Positions 875 to 33,965 of a stretch of DNA of 34,014 nt are shown here, one piece after another. The number at the start of each line of letters is the position of its first letter. The stretch's first letter is position 1. The notes beneath the pieces were generated by a model, which was not told the DNA's origin, did not search any database, and saw nothing but the letters and a program-made list of their open reading frames with translations. The stretch is from NCBI GenBank assembly GCA_946490195.1, contig CAMLWN010000009.1:1-34014 (forward strand). Reading direction: 5' to 3'. The position numbers and the translations under genes are program-made. This DNA comes from an uncultured Mycoplasmatota bacterium. Its GTDB lineage: Bacteria; Bacillota_I; Bacilli_A; RF39; UBA660.

Positions 875-1528
875 TTAAACAAATTCCTGATTCATAATCC
901 AATTGATATCATCAATTGCTTTATCTAAATTAAATCTTCCGTTTCCAACCGGATAATATACTGCATAAAAAGTATAATCTTCTCCAAATATTCTTTTAAC
1001 AAATTTCTGTCTTCTTACTTGAGAAACAAAAATTTTTTTCCCTAAAACAATACTACTCACTTGATTTCCAAATAAAATAATTACCTTAGGCTTTACTATA
1101 GCTATTTCTTTTTTTAACAAAAACAAATATTTTTTCAAAACCTCATCAGGAAGTTCTCTAGCATCTACTTGAGTACACTTGCCTAAATTTGTCAAAAAAT
1201 ATTGATGTTTACAAACATTTTCATAAACCTCATAAGCAAAAGAAATCGTCCATTCTTTTCCTTTAATACTTCTTAATTTCTCATAAATATCTATATCGAG
1301 CAAATTTAATCGATAAAATATCTCCCAAACATTTTTTGTTCCAATCCAAGGAAACTTAGGCCCTTTCCAATCTTTAGAAGAAGCAATATTTCTTCCAGTT
1401 GGATTCATAAAGACAAAGAAAAGTAGAGGTTTATCTATACAGCCTCCATTATAAATAGAATCAAGTTCTATCGCTCCATATTTTTTTTGCATTTTATCAT
1501 AAATCGGAATCAATTCATCTAATTTCAT
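875..1528 (-). CDS. Uracil-DNA glycosylase superfamily protein
   Basis: 217 aa counted from the ATG at 1528. That ATG sits 6 bases after an AGGTG ribosome site; an in-frame GTG at 1537 overlaps the site itself and is less likely. The order of motifs is that of the UDG fold: FVFMNPTGRN near residues 38-47 (active-site loop position), YFLTNLGKC at 110-118, a buried strand KPKVIILFGNQV at 146-157, and YYPVGNGRFN at 191-200 where true family 4/5 enzymes have an HPS-type loop. It lacks the four iron-sulfur cysteines of family 4. The superfamily is clear, but whether it removes uracil or another base, or has lost catalysis, cannot be read from the motifs. It lies 26 bases downstream of the ABC transporter gene that ends at 1555. 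Confidence 0.75.
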   Translation of the reverse strand: MKLDELIPIYDKMQKKYGAIELDSIYNGGCIDKPLLFFVFMNPTGRNIASSKDWKGPKFPWIGTKNVWEIFYRLNLLDIDIYEKLRSIKGKEWTISFAYEVYENVCKHQYFLTNLGKCTQVDARELPDEVLKKYLFLLKKEIAIVKPKVIILFGNQVSSIVLGKKIFVSQVRRQKFVKRIFGEDYTFYAVYYPVGNGRFNLDKAIDDINWIMNQEFV

Positions 1529-1554
1529 AGAAAACACCTAAATTTATTTTAACA

Positions 1555-3972
1555 CTATTTATCTAAAATCGCATCAATTGGTTTAATACGTGTAATTTTT
1601 TTCAAAAATAAACTTGTAAGCATTAAAAGAAGAGCTAAAGTAAATAAAAGAACAAGGATAAGCACCAAAGGATTTTCTAAAAAAACCTGAATAGAATAAT
1701 ACAAATATTGATTTACTGAACGATTTATAAGAAAGGATACTAGAAAATAGAAAACAACAAACAAAAGATAAGATAGAAAACTAATTATACCCGTTTCATA
1801 AAGAAAAATTTTAATCACATCTTTTTCACTAGTTCCTAAAGCTCTTAAAATACCAATTTCTTTTTTGGCAGAAGAAATAGAAGTCGTCAAATAATTTCCA
1901 AATAAAAGAATAGTAAAAACAACAAATAACAAAGCTAAACACAAAAGAAAATAACGCAAAAAATAATACAAATGAATTACGGATGGAACCATATCAAATG
2001 ATGTATCTACCAAGTAATAAGCAGATGGATAAGAATTAGAAATAACAAATTCCGTATTTTCAAAAAGCTGTTTAAGTTTACTTGGATTTTCTTCTACAAT
2101 TCGTACAAAAGACGGCATATGAATATTTTCGCGAGCTTCTAAAACAACCGAATCACTAACATAATTAACCGAATCAAGAGTTATCCCTTTTACTTGTACA
2201 ATAAATAAAGAATTTTCACTAAACGGTCTACGTAAAATAAGTGGTAAAGAAAAACCATCAACCAAATAGTTTTGAATATATTCTATAAGCGAAGGTAAAT
2301 CATCTTGAAGGTTTTTATAATTTTCATTAAAACCCGAATCAATCTCTCTTAAAAAATCTACAGATAACACAACTTCATCTTTCTGTAAAGAAGAAATTTC
2401 TTCCAAACCATGTAAAGTAATAATTTGAGAAGAAGAAAACACATCGATATCTTGACTAAAAGTATCCCCTACTTGCAAACTAAGAGAATTTGCAACATTT
2501 TCTTCACTATAAAAAAGATTTTTAAAATACTCAATATCCTTAACATAAACAACATTCCCTTTAGAAGCATAATTTGTATAATAAAAACTTTCTAAATTTT
2601 CATTTGGAAAATGTCCAGATAAAAGATATTTTTCATACAAAGAAATGTCATCAAGAACAATTCCAACAATAAAAACATTCGTATTACCAAGCTTAATAGA
2701 ATGATTATCTTCTATCAATTCTTCATAATTTTTAGGTCGATAGATTTCTCCACTTGTATCCTTAATTCCATACTTTAAAATATAATCAGCCATATAACGG
2801 TGAATAACGATTTCATCATTATTTGAAGGAATGCGTCCTAAAAGATTTGAAAACAATGCATCATCCTCAATTTCAATAAAGTATTTTCCACTAGGAGTTA
2901 TAGGATAAAAATCATCTTTAACCCCATAAGTTTCTTCAAAAGAAAAAGATAAACTATATATACCTAAAGAAAGAGTATAAGCCGGATTCAAAACTCTCCC
3001 ACTAAGTGTTTCCAAATTTTTTAAATCAGTATCTATTAAATCAACGCTAGATTCTCCCTCATACTTATAAATATCTAATACAGACTGCTTATTATCAGTT
3101 AAAGCCTTTAAAACAAAAGCATCATCATTAAATAAAAACAAATTCATAGAAACGCCTAAAAACAATAAAGAAAGAGCCATAATAAAAATCGTTAAAAAAA
3201 GCTTAAATGGTTTTACTTGTAAATTTCGTAGAGCCATTTTTATAGCAAAAACAAAAGGAAGTTTAGAACTTTCAAAAGAAAGTTTTTTATTCTCTATCTG
3301 AATGTTTGGATTAGAGTCTTCTACTACCTCGCCATCAACAAGTTTAATAATACGTTCTCCATAACGTTTAGCAGATTCTTCATCATGAGAAACAACAATC
3401 ACCAATTTCTCTTGACTTATTTCTTTTAAAATTTCAAAAATTTGCTGACTAGAAGCATAATCTAAATTTCCTGTTGGTTCATCTGCTAAAATAATCTCCG
3501 GTTCCTTAACCAAAGCTCTTGCAATTGCCACTCGTTGTTTTTGACCACCAGAAAGTTCGTTAATTTTTCGAAGTGCTAACTCATCAATCGACATTTTCTT
3601 TAAAAGTGAATAAACCTTATTTAAATCTTTTTTCCCGTGTAATTCTAAAGCCAAACTTACATTTTCAAAAACATTATACTCTTCTAAAAGATTAAAATCT
3701 TGAAAAACAAACCCAATTGCTGAATTTCGATATTCATCATATTCCTGATTTGAAAATTGTGTAACATTCTTTTGATAAAAAAAGATTTCTCCACTACTCG
3801 GAGTATCTAATCCTCCAAGAATATTTAAAAGAGTAGACTTTCCACAACCACTTTTTCCTAATATAAAAACCATTCCTTTTGAAGCAAACTGTAAATGAAC
3901 ATTTTTTAAAGCAATAGTATCCGGTCCTTTTTTAGAACGATAAATTTTTGTAACATTTCTTAACTCCAACAT
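1555..3972 (-). CDS. ABC transporter, ATPase fused to FtsX/MacB-type permease
   Basis: An 805-aa fusion. Residues 1-220 are the ATPase: Walker A GKSGCGKST at 39-47, signature LSGGQ at 140-144, Walker B ILADEP at 161-166 and the switch His at 196. A membrane segment follows near 250-280, then a long extracytoplasmic domain of about 380 residues, then three C-terminal membrane segments of FtsX type. Such proteins do not pump solutes across the bilayer; they use ATP to drive changes on the outer side (peptide antibiotic removal, lipoprotein or cell-wall signalling). Gene order matches the last part of Ytr-type operons (YtrE and YtrF, here on one chain). Ribosome site AGGTG stands 5 bases before the ATG. 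A short palindrome, TTACAA-ATA-TTGTAA, lies upstream at 3987-4001. Confidence 0.9.
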   Translation of the reverse strand: MLELRNVTKIYRSKKGPDTIALKNVHLQFASKGMVFILGKSGCGKSTLLNILGGLDTPSSGEIFFYQKNVTQFSNQEYDEYRNSAIGFVFQDFNLLEEYNVFENVSLALELHGKKDLNKVYSLLKKMSIDELALRKINELSGGQKQRVAIARALVKEPEIILADEPTGNLDYASSQQIFEILKEISQEKLVIVVSHDEESAKRYGERIIKLVDGEVVEDSNPNIQIENKKLSFESSKLPFVFAIKMALRNLQVKPFKLFLTIFIMALSLLFLGVSMNLFLFNDDAFVLKALTDNKQSVLDIYKYEGESSVDLIDTDLKNLETLSGRVLNPAYTLSLGIYSLSFSFEETYGVKDDFYPITPSGKYFIEIEDDALFSNLLGRIPSNNDEIVIHRYMADYILKYGIKDTSGEIYRPKNYEELIEDNHSIKLGNTNVFIVGIVLDDISLYEKYLLSGHFPNENLESFYYTNYASKGNVVYVKDIEYFKNLFYSEENVANSLSLQVGDTFSQDIDVFSSSQIITLHGLEEISSLQKDEVVLSVDFLREIDSGFNENYKNLQDDLPSLIEYIQNYLVDGFSLPLILRRPFSENSLFIVQVKGITLDSVNYVSDSVVLEARENIHMPSFVRIVEENPSKLKQLFENTEFVISNSYPSAYYLVDTSFDMVPSVIHLYYFLRYFLLCLALLFVVFTILLFGNYLTTSISSAKKEIGILRALGTSEKDVIKIFLYETGIISFLSYLLFVVFYFLVSFLINRSVNQYLYYSIQVFLENPLVLILVLLFTLALLLMLTSLFLKKITRIKPIDAILDK

Positions 3973-4035
3973 ATACTCACCTATTCTTACAAATATTGTA
4001 AAAGATTATGTATAAAAACACAAGCACTTTACAAA

Positions 4036-4605
4036 TCAATTAATACCACACGACTCAAATACCCAAGGATAAAACCAAAAACCAAATTCCACTATATAAC
4101 ACACATGACCACTTAAACCTGTTTTTTTATTTTCATAAGAAATTATTTGATAACTTCCTTTATATCCTACTCCATAATACGTATCATTTATTAAAATCAT
4201 AAAAATAGGTTTTTCTAAAGAAGATATTCTATTAAAATCTACAAAAGCAAGCATAAGAATGACAAACAAAAGAATTCCTAAAATTCCTTTAATTTTTACA
4301 TTTTGACTCATTTCTTTAAAATTCAAACAAATCATATAAAGAAAAAATACGCTAAAAACAAATAAAGCTCCAAAAACTTCAGCCCAAAAATAAATTCCGA
4401 AAAAATAACTAATCACTAACGTAATGGGAATGACAAAAAGTAAAAAAAGAAAAGTCCATTTATATTTTTTTTTTAAAAGAAGAGACGTTTCTAAAAACAA
4501 CAAAAAAAACCAAACATAAAACAATTCTCCAAAAAAAAGTTCTTTCCAAAACAAATACAAGACAAGAAAAAGAAAACAACAACCAATCAATAACCATTTT
4601 TTCAA
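4036..4605 (-). CDS. Membrane protein of unknown function
   Basis: 189 aa with about five membrane segments (roughly 3-20, 25-42, 50-72, 78-95 and 106-124) and a C-terminal extracytoplasmic tail of about 60 residues. The tail contains DTYYGVGYK and ends in aromatic residues (FGFWFYPWVFESCGIN). I do not recognise the family with confidence. It sits between the ABC-2 permease and the MacB-type fusion, in the same direction, with 65 bases to the gene upstream and 63 to the gene downstream. It is therefore probably a member of the Ytr-like operon, perhaps an accessory subunit. Confidence 0.7.
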   Translation of the reverse strand: MKKWLLIGCCFLFLVLYLFWKELFFGELFYVWFFLLFLETSLLLKKKYKWTFLFLLFVIPITLVISYFFGIYFWAEVFGALFVFSVFFLYMICLNFKEMSQNVKIKGILGILLFVILMLAFVDFNRISSLEKPIFMILINDTYYGVGYKGSYQIISYENKKTGLSGHVCYIVEFGFWFYPWVFESCGIN

Positions 4606-4670
4606 AACTCTTCACCTATAATAAAAATAGCAAAAAAGAGAACAGAAAACAACAAAAAAAGAAAGAACAA

Positions 4671-5300
4671 TTAAAATTCTTTCTTTACATAAATTCTTTT
4701 ACTTATCTGATAAGAAATAAAAGTAACCAAAAATACAAGAATAAGCAAAATCCAAGGTAAATAAAGATGTAAAAAATGAGTAAGATTTTCAGGGATAGTA
4801 AGAGAAATATTTTTCATCAAAAATCCTACTAAAAAACTTAGCAAAAAAATACCTACAAATAAACCAATACGTCCCTTTTCCACTCCAAATTTAATAAGCA
4901 AAGGATACATAAAAGCTTGAAGAAGTAAGATAGATGCTCCACATCCAAGTAATAAAGAAAGGGTTTTTTGAATATCAAAATCTTGATTTACTAAACCAAC
5001 TAAAAAGGCAATCAAAAAAGTTCCTAGTAAAGCAATTGCCAAAAGTAAAATACTTCCAACATATTTAGATAATACAAGCTCTTTCTTTTTTACAGGCAAA
5101 CTAATCGTATAAGCATCCCATTTATTATATTCATCATAACTAAAAGTCGTCATAAACATCATCATACTAATAAAAGCAGGCACAAAATACAAAAAGTCAT
5201 TTCCTTCTAAAGCTATCAAACCAAAAACAAGTAAAAATATCAAAATAGTTCTTGCATTTCCTTTAATAAGCAAAAAATCTTTTAAAATAAGCCCTTTCAT
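4671..5300 (-). CDS. ABC-2 type transporter permease
   Basis: 209 aa beginning MKGLILKDFLLIKGN, a typical opening of small ABC-2 permeases, followed by about six hydrophobic segments. A short cytoplasmic loop contains SYDEYNKWDAYTISLPVKKKELVLSKY, the conserved region after the second segment in the YtrC/YhaP-like group; only part of it needs noting (PVKKKELVLSKY). The ATG overlaps the TGA of the ATPase gene upstream by four bases, so the two are translationally coupled and should form one transporter. The substrate is unknown; relatives act in bacitracin, acetoin or wall-antibiotic responses. Confidence 0.87.
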   Translation of the reverse strand: MKGLILKDFLLIKGNARTILIFLLVFGLIALEGNDFLYFVPAFISMMMFMTTFSYDEYNKWDAYTISLPVKKKELVLSKYVGSILLLAIALLGTFLIAFLVGLVNQDFDIQKTLSLLLGCGASILLLQAFMYPLLIKFGVEKGRIGLFVGIFLLSFLVGFLMKNISLTIPENLTHFLHLYLPWILLILVFLVTFISYQISKRIYVKKEF

Positions 5301-9127: not shown

Positions 9128-10238
9128 TTACACAATTCCTTCCCAAGAAACATCTGTTGGTTTATTAGCTGGACAACTACTAAACATACTAGAAACATTC
9201 GCATTATTTTTATATACAAACTTTTCCCCATAAATAACATTTGTTAAATCACTTGAACCCCAAAAAAATTGAGAAAAAATAGTAACTTTTGTAGTATCAA
9301 AAGAACTTAAATTAAGCTCTTGTATAGAAGTATCCCGAAACATTCCTCCCATATTAGTCACTTGCAAAGTATCAAAAGACGTAATATTAAGCTCAGTCAG
9401 ACCTGTTGAAAGTCCAAACATATAATACATATTTGTAACATTTGATGTATCAAAAGACGAGACATCTAAACGAACAATATTTCTTTGACCAGAAAACATA
9501 TTTGACATGTTTGTAACTTTAGATGTATCAAAACTAGATAAATCAAGTTCCAATAAAACAGGAGCGTTATCAACTACAGCATTATTAGCAAACATTCCTG
9601 CCATATTTGTTACATTTGACGTATCAAAATGACTTAAATCTAAACTGCTTAAATACCTTAAATCATAAAACATTCTTGACATATTCGTAACTTGGCTAGT
9701 ATCAACAAACTCCAAACCTTCAATGGAAGTTAACTTACTTATGTAATCTCCATCTACAGTTTCAGCATAATAACTAAAAAAATTCTCTGAATTAACTGGT
9801 AAATAAATAGTCTCGTTACTTTGAATATAAGCAGTATAAGTTCCTGGGTCATCTCCATTCTCAACCAAATGCACTAAAATACTCTCATCCTCTTTTTCAC
9901 TTAAATCAACAGAAACTACAGCATTATCTATTGTTGTGATTTCATTTTGAAAAACAATTGTTTTTATACTTGACTTTTTTTCTTCATATGAAACATCACA
10001 AGTTTCAACAGCACAATTTTTTATAAAATTAGGTTCTTTAAAATATAAAATTACAAGTTGTTTTAAAAGTATCCATACCAGTAATTATAGGTGCCCAACT
10101 GCTATTATCCCATCTAATAGTCGCATCATTAGTACAACTACTTTTTTGATTATCAAAAATATATCCACTAGTTTTATTTGGAACAGTATCCGAAAATACA
10201 TCTTCAATATAAACAGCTAATAAAGCATCTTCATTCAT
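9128..10238 (-). pseudogene. BspA-like LRR surface protein, frameshifted
   Basis: The 3' part (9128-9874 and on up to about 10046 in the same frame) encodes six repeats of about 24 residues built around FDTSNVTNM, the DUF285/BspA-type leucine-rich repeat found in surface adhesins of gut bacteria. The 5' part (10038-10238) is in another frame and encodes a domain ending in TTCNFIF-stop. Removing one T from the TTTT run at 10047-10050 joins the frames as TCNLYFKEPNFIKNC. The same small domain (GYIFD...SCTN...W) occurs in the gene at 31949-33148, where it is followed by a matching CSLYF. No signal peptide or ribosome site is visible before the Met at 10238; an 11-G run and a TGA lie upstream. 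I read this as a decayed gene, not programmed frameshifting. Confidence 0.75.
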
Positions 10239-18412: not shown

Positions 18413-20194
18413 TTATTTTTTCCGAACAATTTCACGAATTTTTTGAAATTTTTCCTTATCTTTATCTTTAAAAAAAGCCAAACAACTTTCTAAATAATAA
18501 GAAAACAATTTCTTCTTTCTAACATCATCACTATTAGATATTTCTTTTTTAGAGTTTTGAAGATCTTTAATAAGAAATCTACGAAGTACAGAATAAAAAG
18601 TCGCATTAGGTGAATAATCCATTTCGAACATACAACGAAAATCATTTTGAAGTAAATATTCCATTTCTTTATTTTTAAAAAACATATAATACCAAACAAG
18701 CACTTGTTCACCATTTTTCAGAAGAATATTTAAAAAGTTTTTCTCTATATATTGCCATAAAGAAGCAATTTGTTCTTCTTTTAAAAATTCATACTGTTCT
18801 TCAAAATTAACTATTTTTCCCAATTCTTGAACAAATTCATCTTTAGAAATCTTATCAAGAACAAACGAAATCAAAGAAAATAAAAGTTTTTGAAATTGTC
18901 CCGCATCAGGAAGTTCAATTTCTTCTTCATCAAGTACTTGAATAATACCATTTGTAGATAAAGAAAGCGAAGAGAAAAAATCATCCCTATTTATCTGATA
19001 GTTCACCATACGATGTAAAGCAAATTCTTTTTCTTTATTTACATCTCCATTAGGAAGTAAATCTAAAAACGTAAACGGAAAATAATTCACGTCTGGAGCA
19101 TAAACAATTCTTAAATAATTTTGAAATTCTATCAAATCTACAGTTTGATAAATAGCTTTTTCTTGTTCAAGCAAATTTTTTAAAATATTCTGATAAAATG
19201 TTTTATTCTCATGTTCATTTTTCATTTTACAAGCCATAATTCTTTCATAGACATGTAAAATACGAACACTAAGTTCTTCCAACTCTAAAAATACTTTATG
19301 ATACGAAAGAATATCCGTATAAGAATATTTTACATCCATCAAAAAACCATTCTGATAATACTCAAAACTATTTAAATCAAATTCTTGAACAACATCATCT
19401 TGCTCACCTTCATATTCTAATAATCCAACCTTATATTTTAATAAAATACCATTTGCTTCATGAAAATATTTTTCATATACATCAGCAAGATCTAATGAAA
19501 AAAAATAAGCTTGTAATTCATTCCATAGATTAGACAAACAAGATTTAGGAAAATTTTTCAAACAAGATTCAAATAACAATAACAATTCTCCATGCTCTTC
19601 TTTTTTAATATCATATCGAACTAATTTTTTATATAATTTTTTTAAAACATCTATTTCCATTTCAAAAGCTTTTTCAGAATCTGCAAAAACAGATATTTCT
19701 TGATAAGCATTTGCCTTTACAAAAGAAGAAAATAGTTCTTTTAAATTTAATGTCATATCTAAGTATGTTTTACTAACTTGATATTCCCAATTTTTAAACC
19801 CCAAAAAAGCTTCAATATACTCTTTAAAATACGAAATATTTCTAACAGACAAAGCTTCTTTAAAATTTAATGCACTAAAAGCCTGACATTCAAAAAACTC
19901 CCAAACAGTTTGTAATGAAGAAAATGTAAGTAATACATCACAAGATAAATTTTGATGAGTAATAATATTTGCTAACAAAAAATCATCATAATCAAAACCA
20001 GCATTTTTTTCAATCTTTTCAGCAACAGATTGCAAAACAGCATAATTTTTTTCAAAGTAACTCAAAATATTTTCCTTTTGTTGAATCAAATCTTCTAAAA
20101 CCAATTTATAACATTCTTTATTTTCATTTTCATATAACTTTTGAACTTTTAAAATTTGTTCCCATATATCAAATAGTTTATAAACATTCTCCAT
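18413..20194 (-). CDS. Large helical protein of unknown function
   Basis: 593 aa, no recognised family. Composition is rich in Leu, Glu, Lys and Phe, predicted almost wholly helical, with no signal peptide or membrane segment, so it is likely cytoplasmic. No nucleotide-binding, zinc-finger or catalytic motif is visible. One less charged patch (about 362-385) contains RIVYAPDVNYFPFTFLDLL, which could be a structured core. It has a GGGGGA ribosome site, TATAAT at 20221-20216 and TTGTTT 17 bases further up. It is transcribed toward tex with 45 bases between them. It resembles the N-terminal half of the 22970-24871 protein only in composition; I see no alignable segment. Confidence 0.8.
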   Translation of the reverse strand: MENVYKLFDIWEQILKVQKLYENENKECYKLVLEDLIQQKENILSYFEKNYAVLQSVAEKIEKNAGFDYDDFLLANIITHQNLSCDVLLTFSSLQTVWEFFECQAFSALNFKEALSVRNISYFKEYIEAFLGFKNWEYQVSKTYLDMTLNLKELFSSFVKANAYQEISVFADSEKAFEMEIDVLKKLYKKLVRYDIKKEEHGELLLLFESCLKNFPKSCLSNLWNELQAYFFSLDLADVYEKYFHEANGILLKYKVGLLEYEGEQDDVVQEFDLNSFEYYQNGFLMDVKYSYTDILSYHKVFLELEELSVRILHVYERIMACKMKNEHENKTFYQNILKNLLEQEKAIYQTVDLIEFQNYLRIVYAPDVNYFPFTFLDLLPNGDVNKEKEFALHRMVNYQINRDDFFSSLSLSTNGIIQVLDEEEIELPDAGQFQKLLFSLISFVLDKISKDEFVQELGKIVNFEEQYEFLKEEQIASLWQYIEKNFLNILLKNGEQVLVWYYMFFKNKEMEYLLQNDFRCMFEMDYSPNATFYSVLRRFLIKDLQNSKKEISNSDDVRKKKLFSYYLESCLAFFKDKDKEKFQKIREIVRKK

Positions 20195-22107: not shown

Positions 22108-22920
22108 TCAAAAATGAATACTTTCATGATTAGGTTCACTATACAAATCTTCAAACTTTCCTTTTCGAGATTGAATCATTAAACCAAGTATTGCAATAAT
22201 AAATAAAACAAACGAAACCATTTGAGCCACTTTAAATCCACCAAGCATTAAAGAATCTGTTCTCATAGATTCGATAAAGAATCTTCCGACACTATACCAA
22301 ATTAAATATACGCAGGTTAATCCCCCAACTTTTAAATACTTATAATGTCTTACAATAAGTAAAACAATAAAACCTAATAAACACCATAAAGATTCATACA
22401 AAAAAGTTGGATGATAATAATTTCCATTAATATACATTCCATTAATAATAAATTCTGGAATATGTAAATTCTCTAAAACAGAACGACTAACAATTCCACC
22501 ATGGGCTTCCATATTAAAGAAATTGCCCCATCTACCAATAGCTTGAGCAAGAATTACTCCAGGAACTGCCATATCAACGATTTTAAATAATCGTGCATTA
22601 TACTTATGACAATAAAGAGCCATCGTAATAAATCCAGCAATTAAACCACCATGAATGGCAAGTCCACCTTCCCAAATTTTAAAAATACTAACAGGGTCAC
22701 TTGCATACTGACTCCAATTAAAAATCACATAATATGCTCTGGCACCAATAAACCCAAATATAATGGTCCAAAAACATAAATTAAATAAAAAATCTGTAGG
22801 ATAATTATGTTTCTTACCTTCCCTTAAAAGCAAAGTAATTCCAACAATTACACCAACTAAAAGTAAAAAAGAATACCACATAATTTCAAAATTACCAATT
22901 TTAAACATAACAGGATTCAC
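22108..22920 (-). CDS. lgt: Prolipoprotein diacylglyceryl transferase
   Basis: About 270 aa with seven membrane segments. It carries the Lgt signature GRWGNFFNMEAHGG (about 129-142) containing the essential Arg and Asn, and WEGGLAIHGG (about 84-93) with the conserved His-Gly. It transfers diacylglycerol from phosphatidylglycerol to the lipobox cysteine of lipoproteins. Start choice: ribosome site GGAGG at 22931-22927 directly abuts the ATG at 22926, which is too close; a GTG at 22920 is six bases away and is preferred. It is the first gene of an operon with two surface proteins, which is unusual company for lgt. A TATAAT box lies at 22949-22944. Confidence 0.93.
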   Translation of the reverse strand: MNPVMFKIGNFEIMWYSFLLLVGVIVGITLLLREGKKHNYPTDFLFNLCFWTIIFGFIGARAYYVIFNWSQYASDPVSIFKIWEGGLAIHGGLIAGFITMALYCHKYNARLFKIVDMAVPGVILAQAIGRWGNFFNMEAHGGIVSRSVLENLHIPEFIINGMYINGNYYHPTFLYESLWCLLGFIVLLIVRHYKYLKVGGLTCVYLIWYSVGRFFIESMRTDSLMLGGFKVAQMVSFVLFIIAILGLMIQSRKGKFEDLYSEPNHESIHF

Positions 22921-22969
22921 ATGCATCCTCCATTCTATAAATGATTATAACACAAAATAGAAAATTTTT

Positions 22970-24871
22970 TTATTTTTTTAACAACAAACTTTGTTCTTCG
23001 AAAAACATATTTAAAACTTCATTTTGATGATTTAAAAAACTAGCTATTTCTTTCAAAAATAATTCATATCGATATAAGTCTGAATCTTTAGCTTTTTTAA
23101 AAAAACATTCTTGAAACATATACATATTATAATTATCAATAGCTCGTCTTAAAGGGCTGGTATTATGAGAATAATACTCTAAGCCAAGTCCAAAATGTCC
23201 TTTACATTCTGTTGAGTAATAAGCTTTAGGAAATTTTTGTTCCAATACTTTCGTTTCACTTAAATAAATATCACTTTTTCTTTCACTTCTAAGTAGTTCT
23301 CTTAATCTTCGAATATCAGAAATTTCTGTAGATGTAACTTCATGATTTCGATACAAAAATGGAAAAGAATGTTCATAAGCAATCTTTGCAAGTAAATAAT
23401 TGGCAAAAACCATTAAAGATTCTACAATTTTCTCAGCAGTTGATACACCAACAATATTGGTATTTGAAACATTTGAACTTGTTCGATTTAATAACGCATA
23501 GATTTTATCTATATGTAAATATTTTTCAAAAAAAGGTTTTAATTCACGTAAATTGTTTAAAGTAGAAACATAGGCTGGATCATCTTTTTCTGTTTCTATT
23601 ACTTCACTACAATGTTCATAAGTATCATTTTTTCCTATAAAAGCATTCTCAGCTTTAACTTCATACCTAATCATGTCAAAAGATTTTGAAGAAATATCAA
23701 CGTAAATACTAAAAACTTTTCGAACATGATTTTGACATAGATTAAAAAGATTTTTAGATAAACAGCTTGGAAACATTAAAATAGGCGGATCTGTATAAAC
23801 TGTAACACATCTTTTAGTTGCTTCTTTAAGAAGTAAACTATCCATTGAAAGATAAGCTAACGGATGAGCAATGTGAATACCTACCCGATAAAAATCATTA
23901 ATTTTTTGACAACTAAATCCATCATCTAATTCTACAGCACACTCCCCATCTACTGTATATAAAATAGGCATGCCTTTACTATAACCCATTTCTGGATGTT
24001 TAAGCACACATAATTTGCTTTCTTGTTTGACAGGAACTGAAAATTTCTTTGGCAAATTATATTGATACTTTAATTCTTTTAAAGAAGTTTCAATACTTTT
24101 ATTATGCGGTTTATCCATAAGCCAAAGTTGTTTTTCTTCAGTTAAAAATACTAACCATTTATTAATAAAATAATGGTATCTTTCTTCTTTTTCTCCCAAA
24201 AAATTTTTATTTTCTAAAAATTCTTGAAAAATATTTTCTAATTTTTGAATTTCATTTAAAAATAATCTTTCTTTTCCATGATTAAATAATATTTGTAAAA
24301 CTCGGTCATAATATATTAATTCATCTAAATAATCATAATTTTTTAAAATATGTTTCTCTAAAACGTGTAAATATTGATAAATTACATCAGATAATAAAGA
24401 AAAGGCCGTCTCATCTAAAAAATTTATTTGATGAGGCTTTTCAATAAGAATATTTTCTAATACTTCTAGATTTCGAATATGAAAAATTAAGTGTTTTAAT
24501 AGATCTAATTTTGTTTCATCATATTTGTAATCAAGAGCATTAGCAAGCTCTATCGAAAGCAAATCTAGTTTTCCCATAATTTTTTTTAAAAACTCATTTT
24601 CTTTATTTTCTAATAATAACTTACGTATTAATAATCGAAGAGATTGAAATCTTTTATATGCTTCTTCTTTATGTTTAAAAGCTTTATATTTAGCTATGAT
24701 TAAAAATGGATATACTTCAATTAAATGTTCATAAGATTTTGAAGGGTCAAAATTTTGCAATTCCATTTCATATAATTCTAAAATTGGAAAAAACTTTTCT
24801 TCAGAAGAAAGCGTTCTTAAAAATTCTTGATCGTTCTCTCGATATTTTTGAATAAGAAGACTTATATCCAT
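22970..24871 (-). CDS. Divergent RNB-family ribonuclease with a novel N-terminal half
   Basis: 633 aa. Residues about 300-580 match the RNase II/R catalytic domain: YTVDGECAVELDD at 305-317, GIHIAHP at 331-337, FANYLLAKIAYEHSFPFLYRNHE around 489-511 (the LANE...P..YR.HE motif), and GHFGLGLEYYSHNTSPLRR at 558-576. The metal-binding acids D308, D316 and D317 equal RNase II D201, D209 and D210; the fourth (D207) is Glu314. Arg575 matches catalytic R500. The cold-shock and S1 RNA-binding domains are absent. In their place are about 290 helical residues that I do not recognise. A 3'-5' exoribonuclease is likely, with an unusual way of binding RNA. Ribosome site AGGTG precedes the ATG by eight bases or so. 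Confidence 0.85.
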   Translation of the reverse strand: MDISLLIQKYRENDQEFLRTLSSEEKFFPILELYEMELQNFDPSKSYEHLIEVYPFLIIAKYKAFKHKEEAYKRFQSLRLLIRKLLLENKENEFLKKIMGKLDLLSIELANALDYKYDETKLDLLKHLIFHIRNLEVLENILIEKPHQINFLDETAFSLLSDVIYQYLHVLEKHILKNYDYLDELIYYDRVLQILFNHGKERLFLNEIQKLENIFQEFLENKNFLGEKEERYHYFINKWLVFLTEEKQLWLMDKPHNKSIETSLKELKYQYNLPKKFSVPVKQESKLCVLKHPEMGYSKGMPILYTVDGECAVELDDGFSCQKINDFYRVGIHIAHPLAYLSMDSLLLKEATKRCVTVYTDPPILMFPSCLSKNLFNLCQNHVRKVFSIYVDISSKSFDMIRYEVKAENAFIGKNDTYEHCSEVIETEKDDPAYVSTLNNLRELKPFFEKYLHIDKIYALLNRTSSNVSNTNIVGVSTAEKIVESLMVFANYLLAKIAYEHSFPFLYRNHEVTSTEISDIRRLRELLRSERKSDIYLSETKVLEQKFPKAYYSTECKGHFGLGLEYYSHNTSPLRRAIDNYNMYMFQECFFKKAKDSDLYRYELFLKEIASFLNHQNEVLNMFFEEQSLLLKK

Positions 24872-24911: not shown

Positions 24912-24933
24912 AAAGATAGCCCAAACTATCTTT
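24912..24933 (-). terminator. Intrinsic terminator of uvrA
   Basis: AAAGATAG/CTATCTTT stem with a six-base loop; on the minus strand a run of eight T follows. The uvrA TAG stop is part of the stem. Confidence 0.88.
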
Positions 24934-27736
24934 CCAAATATTTTTTTAACCATTGTCCTGTGTAAGACTCTTTTACTTTACTTACTTGTTCAGGTGTACC
25001 AGCAGCAACTATCGTGCCTCCTCCTACACCACCATCAGGTCCTAAGTCAATAATATGGTCAGCAACTTTAATCACATCTAAATTATGTTCAATCACAATA
25101 ACTGTATCGCCGTTATCAACAATACGATTTAAAATTGCTAATAATTTTTTTATATCTTCAGAATGTAATCCAGTTGTCGGTTCATCTAAAATAAATAAAC
25201 TTTTTCCAGTAGGTTTCTTTTGAAGTTCTTTAGCAAGTTTCACTCTTCCAGCTTCACCACCAGATAAAGTTGGAGCACTTTGACCCAATTCGATATAAGA
25301 AAGCCCAACATCCATCAAAATATCCACTTTTCGCTTAATTTTTGGAACATTTTCAAAAAACTCAGCAGCCTCATTTACCCGCATATGAAGAACATCGCTA
25401 ATGTTCTTACCTTTAAAAGTAATAGAAAGAGTTTCTTTATTATAACGTTTACCATGACAAACATCACAAGGAACATATACATCTGGTAAAAAATGCATTT
25501 CAATTTTTTTAACCCCGTCTCCCCAACAAGCTTCACATCTTCCACCTTTAACATTAAAAGAAAATCTTCCTTTATCATAGCCATGCATCTTCGCTTCTTT
25601 AGTATTCGCAAATAAATCACGAATATCATCAAATAGACCAATATAAGTTGCTGGATTACTACGAGGAGTACGTCCAATCGCATCTTGACTAATCATAACT
25701 ACTTTATCAATATTTTCTAAACCTTTAACTTCTTTACATTTACCAGGAACTTCTTTTGAACGAAAAAGTTGATTAGCAACCGTTTTATACAAAATTTCAT
25801 TAACTAATGTACTCTTGCCACTTCCAGAAACACCTGTAACACATATAAATTTTCCTAAAGGAAATTTTACATTAATTTTTTTCAAATTGTTCTCTTCAGC
25901 TTTAACAACTTCCAAGTATTTACCATTTCCCTTACGACGTTTTTTAGGAACTTCAATTTTTTCTTTACCACTTAAATAACGACCTGTTAAACTATGTTCA
26001 TTTTGCATAACTTCTTCAGGTGTACCTGTTGCAACAACCGTACCACCTTCAGTTCCAGCACCTGGACCAATTTCAACTAAATAATCTGCAGCTCGCATAG
26101 TATCCTCGTCGTGTTCAACAACAATTAAAGTATTTCCTAAATCTCGCATTTCTTCTAAGGATTTAATCAATTTTTCATTATCCTTCTGATGAAGTCCAAT
26201 ACTTGGTTCATCTAAAACATACAAAACTCCTGATAATTTACTACCGATTTGAGTTGCAAGCCTAATTCGTTGTGATTCACCACCGGATAAAGTTCCGGCT
26301 TTACGATGCAAAGTCAAATATTCAAGTCCTACATTAACTAAGAAAGACAAACGATTATCTATTTCCGTCAACAAAAGACGACTGATATTTTCTTGTTCAT
26401 TAGTAAGTTTCAAATTTCGTAAAAAGTCTCTCAATTCTTTAATACTCATCATCGTCATATCATAGATATTTTTTCCTTGAATATAAATAGATAATACACT
26501 ATCTTGAAGTCTTGTTCCATGACACACTGGACAATCCATTTCAACCATAAATCCTTCAAGCCATTCACGAACCCAAGAACTAGTTGTTTCCATATAACGA
26601 CGTTCTAAATTAGGAATTACTCCCTCATAATAATCATTAGAATAACGAACATTTCCCGTTTTAGAAACATACTTAATCTCTACTGGATCCTTTGAACCAA
26701 ACAAAATATTTTCAAACTTTTCTCGTGGAATATCTTTAACAGGCATATTCATATCTATATCATAATACTCACAGACAGCTTGAACTGTTTGATTATAAAT
26801 ATTATTGTCCAAGTTATAGGCAACAATCGCTCCTTCATTTAAACTTTTTTCCTTATTAGGAATAATTAAATCTTCACTAATTTTAAGCTTTGTTCCTAAG
26901 CCCTTACATTCAGGACATGCCCCATAAGGACTATTAAAAGAAAAAAGTCTAGGCTCAAGTTCAGGAATGGAAAAATTACACTTCACACAAGCATAATTTT
27001 CACTCATTAAAATTTCTTCTCCACCAATCACATGAAATAAAACTTTTCCACTAGCAAGTTTTGTACTCGTTTCAATAGATTCAAAAACACGACTTCGTTC
27101 ACTTTCCTTAACTACTACACGGTCAACAACAACTTCAATATTATGTTTTTTATTTTTTTCTAGTTTTATTTCTTCATCTAAACTAAAGTTATCTCCATCG
27201 ACTCTTACCCGTGAATATCCTTCTTTTCGTAAATCTTCAAACAAATCTTTTTGAGTTCCTTTTTCGCCATGAACGATAGGCGCTAAAATCTCTAACTTAG
27301 TTCCTTCCTCAAATTCCATAATTTTATTTGTCATTTCTTCAATACTTTGACTTTTAATTGGAATATGATGATTTGGACAATATGGCACTCCAATACGCGC
27401 AAATAAAAGACGCAAAAAATCATAAATTTCTGTAATTGTTCCAACAGTACTTCGAGGATTTTTATTAGTCGTTTTTTGATCAATAGATATACTTGGACTT
27501 AATCCTTCAATACTATCTACATCAGGTTTTTCCACATTTCCAATAAATTGACGAGCATAAGCAGATAAACTTTCTACGTATCTCCTTTGTCCTTCAGCAA
27601 AAATTGTATCAAAAGCTAAACTACTTTTCCCACTTCCAGAAACTCCAGTCATAACAATTAATTTATTTTTTGGAAGCTCAATATCTACATTCTTTAAATT
27701 ATTTTCACGAGCTCCTTTAACAATAATTTTATCCAT
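24926..27736 (-). CDS. uvrA: Excinuclease ABC subunit A
   Basis: 936 aa, normal length. It has two ABC ATPase modules: Walker A GVSGSGKSS at 31-39 and GVSGSGKST near 635, each with an LSGGE signature. Zinc modules are CVKC...CPEC in the middle and CEAC...CDVC near 735-760. UvrA finds bulky DNA damage and loads UvrB for nucleotide excision repair. uvrB and uvrC are not next to it here. The gene has its own promoter region (TTGCAT, 19-base spacer, TG-G-TAGAAT at 27769-27764) under an inverted repeat, and its own terminator. Confidence 0.98.
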   Translation of the reverse strand: MDKIIVKGARENNLKNVDIELPKNKLIVMTGVSGSGKSSLAFDTIFAEGQRRYVESLSAYARQFIGNVEKPDVDSIEGLSPSISIDQKTTNKNPRSTVGTITEIYDFLRLLFARIGVPYCPNHHIPIKSQSIEEMTNKIMEFEEGTKLEILAPIVHGEKGTQKDLFEDLRKEGYSRVRVDGDNFSLDEEIKLEKNKKHNIEVVVDRVVVKESERSRVFESIETSTKLASGKVLFHVIGGEEILMSENYACVKCNFSIPELEPRLFSFNSPYGACPECKGLGTKLKISEDLIIPNKEKSLNEGAIVAYNLDNNIYNQTVQAVCEYYDIDMNMPVKDIPREKFENILFGSKDPVEIKYVSKTGNVRYSNDYYEGVIPNLERRYMETTSSWVREWLEGFMVEMDCPVCHGTRLQDSVLSIYIQGKNIYDMTMMSIKELRDFLRNLKLTNEQENISRLLLTEIDNRLSFLVNVGLEYLTLHRKAGTLSGGESQRIRLATQIGSKLSGVLYVLDEPSIGLHQKDNEKLIKSLEEMRDLGNTLIVVEHDEDTMRAADYLVEIGPGAGTEGGTVVATGTPEEVMQNEHSLTGRYLSGKEKIEVPKKRRKGNGKYLEVVKAEENNLKKINVKFPLGKFICVTGVSGSGKSTLVNEILYKTVANQLFRSKEVPGKCKEVKGLENIDKVVMISQDAIGRTPRSNPATYIGLFDDIRDLFANTKEAKMHGYDKGRFSFNVKGGRCEACWGDGVKKIEMHFLPDVYVPCDVCHGKRYNKETLSITFKGKNISDVLHMRVNEAAEFFENVPKIKRKVDILMDVGLSYIELGQSAPTLSGGEAGRVKLAKELQKKPTGKSLFILDEPTTGLHSEDIKKLLAILNRIVDNGDTVIVIEHNLDVIKVADHIIDLGPDGGVGGGTIVAAGTPEQVSKVKESYTGQWLKKYLER

Positions 27737-31948: not shown

Positions 31949-33148
31949 TCAAGAAACTTGATAAGGATTTTCCTTAGTTCCTTCACCTGTAATTGTCACA
32001 TAGTCCAGAAATGATTTCCCACTGTTATATAACTATTTAGATTTGATAATTGATGATTATAACTTCCATCAAATATTCCTCCACCTGTTTGAAAGAATTA
32101 CCTCATCTACTGTAATAAGTCCTATTGGATAACTTAATGCTTTATTCCCTTGACTAGAAGAAGATATCGTATATAAATTACTTTCATTTTCGCAAATCAA
32201 ACTTGGTATGCTTTCTAGCATTCGTAAGTAACCTTTATTATATGTCGTAACACTTCCTGTTTCTACTCCGCTTTGTGAATTTAATGTACTCCTATCTCCA
32301 CAAAACCCAGCATTCATATCTATATATGAAGCATAACTTGATAATACATTTGTATAAAAATTATCATTAGCTTGTTTTATAGTTGATGATGTACTTGTTC
32401 CATATGCTTCTCCACTCGTATACATATACCCTAAATACATATTATCATTACTTGCTGGATTAAATTGGAAGTTTCCTACTTGTCTATCTACACTAGATTC
32501 ACCATTATCATGAATACTTGTTCCATCATAAATTATTCTTATTGTACCATCACCATTTATTCTTATTATTCTCCAATAATGATTGGCAAAGTATACATAA
32601 TTATTCTCAACACTTCCTCGGTAATAATAACTCGTTCCATCTGCATCAGTTGTTTCAAATATTCCCTTTTCATGAGACTCACACACTTCATCATCACATG
32701 CTGACTTCGTAAAATCAGGTGTATATTCATATACTTCTAATTCTCCTAATACAGTTTCTACTGTCTTAGTTTTTACAAAATATAAACTACATTTTGTTTG
32801 CTTATTGGTACTTGAATCATAATTCGTATAATCTCCTTCAAATTCCCATGTACTATGATTCCAATTTGGTATTACTCCATTAGTACAATTAGAATTTTCT
32901 GTATCTAAAATATACCCACTATTCTGTTCAGGCAAATCAAAAGTTATTTCATTATCCACGTAATTAAACAAAAAAATATCTCCTGGATCTTGTACTGTTC
33001 CATTAATAATATTAAATTCATCTTGTGTTTGAAAAGAAGCAAATGATGTATAAAAAAACACTCCAGATACTAACAGTATACAAGCTACTGTAAATATTAT
33101 TATTCCCATTTTATTAGAATCTTTTTGTTTGAATTTTTCTAATTCCAT
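31949..33148 (-). pseudogene. Decayed WRII-NPYQL surface protein gene
   Basis: The open part (32069-33148, 359 codons) has a membrane anchor at about 15-33, a small GYILD...CTN...W...CSLYF domain as in the 9128-10238 gene, then the domain starting YWRIIRINGDGTIRIIYDG. It breaks at ILSNRWRNI-stop, where the neighbouring copy reads ILSGTGGGVFDG. Beyond a frameshift the DNA still encodes TGGGIFDGSYN and FWTM, then jumps to VTITGEGTKENPYQVS ending at 31949. About 40 codons are deleted at an ATG microhomology. Ribosome site AAGGTG precedes the start by five bases. Confidence 0.8.
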
Positions 33149-33190: not shown

Positions 33191-33965
33191 TTATACTAAT
33201 TGATATGGATTATCTTTAGTTCCTTCACCTGTAATTGTCACATCAGATCTAAGATTGATAACTGAACGCAGACTAAGAGAAGAAGTTGAACCAAAATCAT
33301 CTAAATAACCAGAAGTTCCTACACCAAAGACACTTGAACCCCAACCAGTAAGAACAAACGGATTATATCCACCTACAGGTGTCATTGTCCAAAATGAACT
33401 TCCCATTGTCAAATAACCATTTGGATTTGTTTTCTGATAACTATGATTTCCATCAAATACTCCTCCACCTGTTCCAGAAAGAATTACTTCATCTGCTGTA
33501 ATAAGTCCTATTGGATACATTAATGCTTTATTTCCTTGACTAGATGAAGACACCGTATATAAATCACTTTCATTTTCACATATCAAACTAGGACTACTTT
33601 CCACTACTCGTAAGTAACCTTTATTATATGTCGTAACAATCCCTGTTCCTGCTCCGCTTTGTGAATTTAATGAACTCCTATCTCCACAAAATCCAGCATT
33701 CATATCTATATATGAAGCATAACTTGATAATAACTTGTATAAAAATTATCATTAGCTATTTTAATAGATGATGATGTATTGGTTCCATGTGCTTCGCCAT
33801 CTGTATACATATATCCTAAATACATATTATCGTCATATGCATCGTTATATGGACTGATTCCTACATATCTATCTTCACTTACTTCACCATTATCATGAGT
33901 ACTCGTTCCATCATAAATTATTCTAATCGTACCATCACCGTTTATTCTTATTATTCTCCAATAAA
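33191..33965 (-). pseudogene. Second WRII-NPYQL surface gene copy, frameshifted and cut by an IS-like end
   Basis: A paralogue of the 31949-33148 gene, closely alike at DNA level. It reads YWRIIRINGDGTIRIIYDG, then loses one base (ACAAGTTATTATC where the other copy has ACAAATGTATTATC, near 33730), so the frame ends at 33706 and resumes as MNAGFCGD at 33703, running to NPYQLV at 33191. Upstream of YWRII, where the other copy has FANHYW, the sequence turns into a foreign hairpin at 33965. The N-terminal half is outside the window. It lies 42 bases before the other copy. Confidence 0.8.

Follow-up and report, generated by a model that had tools for sequence, protein, structure and literature searches.

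RNBx, the protein encoded by the gene studied here, is a new subfamily architecture among the RNB ribonucleases, with an unusual gene linkage and evolution. The gene is located in a window of 34,014 nucleotides, the whole stretch of DNA that was analyzed, from an uncultured Mycoplasmatota bacterium. The helical N-terminal half of RNBx and its linkage to dnaI appear to be new; RNB proteins without cold-shock (CSD) or S1 domains and catalytically dead RNB proteins are already known. The features of the gene and its neighbors are listed in Table 1.

Table 1. Positions in the window of RNBx, its parts and the flanking genes.
Feature	Position	Strand	Basis or remark
RNBx, RNB-family protein of 633 aa, whole ORF including stop	22970..24871	-	ORF reading, dN/dS 0.07-0.18
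RNBx residues 1-255, family-specific helical N-terminal half, no known family	24107..24871	-	AF2, Pfam, hhalign, Foldseek
RNBx residues 258-633, RNB catalytic region and lead-in helices	22973..24100	-	Pfam RNB, hhalign against RNase R
RNBx metal-binding motif D308, E314, D316, D317	23921..23950	-	Alignment to RNase II structures
RNBx R575-R576 of motif HFGLGLEYYSHNTSPLRR; R575 would correspond to RNase II R500	23144..23149	-	
uvrA, upstream neighbor, conserved flank	24926..27736	-	Gap to RNBx 54 bp
lgt, downstream neighbor, conserved flank	22108..22926	-	Gap to RNBx 43 bp

The RNBx frame begins with ATG and contains no internal stops, and the opposite (plus) strand is rich in stops. When RNBx was compared with relatives at 91, 84 and 77% identity we found dN/dS values of 0.07, 0.11 and 0.18, indicative of purifying selection. 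The gene occupies the uvrA-lgt interval in most gene-bearing genomes of the window's genus (about a dozen assemblies). The low dN/dS values together with this recurring position argue that RNBx is a real gene. It is nevertheless dispensable, since in genome G020 uvrA adjoins lgt with no gene between, and in G011 (locus L065, G011:C22, 1840-2500) the copy between intact uvrA and lgt is broken by an early stop and has lost a large internal part. A search for a standard RNase R gene (rnr), proposed along with the sequence-only reading of this DNA, located one on contig C42 of the same genome. Since the genome also encodes standard RNase R, RNBx is not the housekeeping enzyme.

Pfam placed an RNB domain at residues 304-587 (E 2e-41; 142.8 bits against a gathering score of 29.3), which makes RNBx a member of the RNB superfamily. 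Alignment of this region to RNase R with hhalign gave a probability of 100 and an E of 4e-61, and the C-terminus of RNBx falls where RNase R continues into its S1 domain. Against the NCBIfam equivalog for RNase R (TIGR02063) RNBx scored 111.7 bits, below the cut-off of 597.85. In the alignment to RNase II structures residue 305 of RNBx aligns with residue 198 of RNase II, so that D308, E314, D316 and D317 correspond to D201, D207, D209 and D210. All four metal-binding positions are acidic; one Asp is replaced by Glu, so RNBx does not carry a strict quartet of four Asp. Residue 550 aligns with residue 495 of PDB chain 2ix1, the numbering of which is about 20 residues longer than that of 2id0, and by subtracting these extra residues we infer that R575 is R500 of RNase II. 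The sequence-only reading had claimed that three metal-binding acids and the key Arg are kept and that the fourth acid is Glu314, and the structural alignment bears this out for D308, D316, D317 and R575. With Glu in place of Asp207, metal binding may be weaker or different.

We found no Pfam match to CSD, OB_RNB, S1 or HTH domains in the window RNBx, in 20 of its relatives, or in the N-terminal halves of 81 members of the subfamily. The same Pfam library gave clear CSD2, OB_RNB and S1 matches in the genome's RNase R, so their absence from RNBx cannot be put down to a failed test. Pfam on 21 full-length members and 81 N-terminal halves, hhalign, and AF2 all gave no sign of the N-terminal CSD1 and CSD2 that characterize RNase R, and the C-terminal S1 was likewise absent from RNBx. 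The view of RNBx as an RNB ribonuclease without cold-shock or S1 domains is thereby confirmed. Profile-profile comparison placed the start of the conserved lead-in helices of RNase R at about residues 231-258 of RNBx. The part that is novel is therefore about residues 1-255, and the earlier estimate of about 290 unassignable residues was correct in that a new region exists, but too long.

The AF2 model of residues 1-302 is all helix with zero strands (mean pLDDT 67, pTM 0.52); it was built on five close relatives, its confidence is middling, and residues 115-152 and 285-302 are poorly determined. AF2 on the full protein gave a mean pLDDT of 43.8 and was left out of the interpretation. Foldseek with the N-half model returned zero matches at E<=0.001. 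With VIA-align 2 the best Z was 10.3 (rmsd 2.9 over 106 residues), and the matches were to HEAT, 14-3-3 and designed repeat proteins; a middling Z for a helical model may reflect merely a common helix arrangement. The model suggests that the N-terminal half is probably solenoid-like and that hidden CSD or S1 folds are unlikely in it, and such folds were rejected on the combined evidence of hhalign, the helical model and Pfam. Structure prediction and fold search had been named beforehand as the check for such domains and neither revealed any. No Pfam family was common to more than 2 of the 81 N-terminal halves. The N-terminal half of the window protein is acidic (pI 5.6).

Several candidate origins of the helical half were considered and rejected. 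For homology to YtxC, PF08812 was not among the matches listed for the window protein or its N-terminal half, and was not found in 60 sampled genomes of the class. Common ancestry with DnaI, DnaB, ThrS or a neighboring 593-aa protein was dismissed on hhalign probabilities below 1%. No viral copies of the N-terminal half were found. By eye, residues 119-160 or so look ankyrin-like; Pfam gave no such match.

RNase R is the nearest clade to RNBx and has the RNB fold, the motif and the order of catalytic residues in common with it, but RNase R has HTH, CSD1, CSD2 and S1 domains and RNBx has none of these. In Dss1 of the yeast mtEXO the CSDs are replaced by other N-terminal domains that bind a helicase (PMC5758563). 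In contrast to RNBx, Dss1 is eukaryotic, keeps a beta-barrel and S1, and has WH and HTH domains that are described folds. The Dss1 arrangement of a KOW-like barrel, WH and HTH in front and S1 behind was not seen in RNBx, which has no S1 and, in the middling-confidence model, no strand in its N-terminal half. A Dss1-like complex of RNBx with a helicase is putative and rests on the dnaI gene linkage of its relatives. Deinococcus DrII and Haloferax RNase R establish that an RNB domain can work with few or no accessory domains (PMC12320835). However, DrII carries an HTH where the CSDs would be and, with a PDB chain of 469 aa, is a much shorter protein, and neither of the two is described with the 255-aa helical half of RNBx. 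Ssd1 is an RNB protein that persists without catalysis (PMC8934651), as do many RNBx relatives, but Ssd1 retains the cold-shock domains of the DIS3 architecture, whereas the window RNBx retains its catalytic acids, which Ssd1-like proteins have lost. The claim of novelty depended on there being no described RNB subfamily with the same architecture, and we found none.

Using an N-terminal profile we detected the RNBx subfamily in 82 of 386 genomes and 48 of 150 genera of the bacterial family to which the window belongs. Both counts are minima, since a broader profile added members in 8 of 40 dnaI regions, which had been picked because the first profile had missed members there, and 2 further regions of the 40 held only longer RNase R-like forms. 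Presence is patchy across genomes, and the genomes with RNBx are about 1-1.5 Mb. The frames are nearly all open and about 600-690 aa long, a whole-length family model matches 81 of those collected, and the helical half of about 255 aa is retained in nearly all members together with the RNB domain. Rooted on canonical RNase R, the tree groups the members in a single clade (support 100/99). We found no true members beyond the bacterial family in samples of the class and phylum, and the subfamily is so far limited to one family of Bacilli. An outside match in G146 proved to be a coiled-coil protein, and another in G159 covered 45 positions at the linker of a 718-aa frame. The subfamily is fast-evolving; in 36 genomes mean identity was 23% for RNBx, 52% for DnaI and 64% for ThrS. 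A lineage-wide, partly degenerating subfamily is beyond what a reading of the single sequence could see.

The acid quartet varies across the family. Among the 81 members 41 have D-E-D-D, 11 have D-D-D-D and 29 are altered. Since D-E-D-D is found in 41 of 81 members, Glu314 is not an oddity, and Glu in place of Asp207 is the usual state of the active-looking branch and not the decay of a single copy. At the uvrA-lgt site, D-(D/E)-D-D and both Arg are intact in the window copy and in 14 of the remaining 15. On the RNBx tree there are at least 10 switches between kept and lost quartets. Loss of catalytic residues is graded, with frames left open, and occurs mainly among dnaI-linked copies, which make up 27 of the 29 altered members (counts that ignore relatedness). 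The altered pair L236/L230 still has a dN/dS of 0.17, which argues that altered-quartet proteins are functional. That 29 of the 81 relatives have altered acids indicates that catalysis is not essential to the family.

In 49 of 81 RNBx loci the immediate upstream neighbor in the same orientation is dnaI, overlapping RNBx or separated from it by no more than 25 bp in 46 of these 49, and in 33 loci thrS is one of the next three genes downstream. Further divergent members were also seen immediately behind dnaI. The dnaI-linked members sit in deep branches of the RNBx tree. The simplest reading of this tree, which was built quickly and has 23 weak forks, takes four changes of genomic site and makes the uvrA-lgt site in the window's genus a derived one. 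In that genus RNBx is not near dnaI; a relic of RNBx behind dnaI was sought there and rejected, since the genes in that place are unrelated to it. In B. subtilis the slot behind dnaI is occupied by ytxC (dnaB-dnaI-ytxC-thrS); PF08812 was, as noted, not among the matches listed for RNBx. The place behind dnaI may simply have been inherited and carry no functional significance. In the literature library searched, no paper joined RNase R, helicase loader and DnaI, and dnaI, ytxC and thrS occurred together in one annotation atlas only.

Other arrangements were seen at these loci. Three genes lie in a row in L285 (G385, 883-4701), namely dnaI, a 577-aa member with altered catalytic residues and a canonical RNase R of 695 aa, and L289 has two RNBx members in tandem. 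L276 (G397) and L278 (G432) have RNB proteins of 778 and 843 aa with a weak CSD2 between dnaI and thrS, which are possible intermediates or separate paralogs. In the window's genus, L315 (G014:C10, 701-3034) encodes an RNase R-like protein of 778 aa whose gene immediately precedes thrS, and the same genome also has an RNBx of the uvrA-lgt type.

Whole-gene alleles of RNBx have been exchanged in the window's genus, with edges at the gene boundaries. Relative to the window, the DNA of L044 is about 90% identical in uvrA and lgt and 52-66% identical across RNBx; for L039 the values are about 70-81% in the flanks and 82-94% across RNBx. Both shifts fall at the edges of RNBx at a resolution of 200 bases. 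The uvrA tree rejects both RNBx groupings (p-AU 7e-5 and 0.004). In a binning chimera the same high identity would not be regained beyond the gene. L038 differs in that identity is lower on the lgt side only.

We favor, with a confidence just short of even, the explanation that RNBx is an active 3'-5' exoribonuclease paralog whose helical half is a protein-binding scaffold and whose ancestry lies in the dnaI operon. An RNase R paralog would have lost its cold-shock domains and S1 clamp and gained the helical, probably solenoid-like N-terminal half. The window protein would still be a metal-dependent 3'-5' exoribonuclease, an activity predicted from the retention under selection of the acid quartet (one Asp being Glu), the Tyr and the Arg. 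A protein bound to the helical half would then, in place of OB folds, guide RNBx to particular RNAs. Altered substrate choice or a protein partner was the implication drawn earlier from the sequence, and this proposal is aided by the helical prediction, the acidic N-terminal half, the dnaI linkage and the precedent of Dss1. Ancestral RNBx was probably co-expressed with the helicase loader DnaI, and this origin suggests that its first role involved RNA present when replication starts or restarts, for example primers or RNA-DNA hybrids. In lineages that have lost the acids, RNBx would be maintained as a subunit that binds RNA or protein. We hold it rather improbable that the subfamily is a partner of DnaI that trims or holds RNA at replication start or restart, with catalysis optional and alleles swapped as whole-gene cassettes; if this were true, active enzymes and pseudo-enzymes would coexist in one bacterial family.

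The altered quartets in 29 of 81 members, the repeated state changes on the tree and the constraint on L236/L230, which points to functional non-catalytic forms, would also be expected if RNBx were already, or nearly, a non-catalytic RNA-binding regulator for which Ssd1 in fungi is the precedent (PMC8934651), the acids being remnants. However, the selective retention of the quartet and both Arg in the window copy and nearly all uvrA-lgt copies favors catalysis, and we regard such a regulator as credible but unlikely. RNBx could instead be a redundant RNase R paralog that lost its accessory domains by streamlining and serves general RNA decay with no dedicated partner. This would suit the small genomes, the activity of minimal RNB proteins (Haloferax RNase R, Deinococcus RNase II; PMC12320835) and the existence, between dnaI and thrS, of longer forms in which CSD2 is weak. 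Streamlining predicts loss, yet nearly all members have held on to the helical half, and a plain decay enzyme would not be expected to lose catalysis repeatedly while its frame stays intact; we doubt this explanation as well, without thinking it far-fetched.

Antagonistic selection on RNBx, for example in phage defense or counter-defense, could produce fast divergence and whole-allele exchange, and is consistent with the identity steps at the gene edges in L044 and L039, the conflict with the uvrA tree and the patchy presence. But RNBx matched no PADLOC-DB model at E<=0.1, most relatives lie beside dnaI and thrS and not in defense islands, and dN/dS is low between close alleles, and we judge this selection quite improbable. 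The relatives are draft metagenome assemblies, some contigs of which break within or close to the gene (G016), and this would speak for an assembly or binning artifact. An artifact is contradicted by the presence of the same gene with its neighbors in about a dozen assemblies and by the near-identity of both flanks of the swapped allele, unlike a chimera, and we give an artifact almost no credence.

RNBx is part of a natural series that runs from full RNase R through forms with a weak CSD2 and active-like proteins free of CSD and S1 to intact frames with altered catalysis. A single bacterial family contains the whole series, most of it at the same locus. The passage from an enzyme to a non-enzymatic RNB protein, to our knowledge familiar mainly from fungal Ssd1, can thus be tested in bacteria. 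A functional dnaI linkage would tie an RNB nuclease to helicase loading.

Elsewhere in the window three other loci were noted. At 18413-20194 (minus strand), between a camelysin-like gene and tex, lies the helical-looking, unassigned 593-aa protein mentioned above, which is 29-71% identical among relatives in which tex is 88-98% identical. At 9128-9874 (minus strand) a surface-like protein with DUF285 (a mycoplasma-type repeat) and no obvious signal peptide may be a fragment. At 32069-33148 and 33191-33703 (minus strand) the second ORF begins with a repeat of the end of the first (MNAGFCGDRS...), which looks like a tandem copy or a frameshifted repeat.
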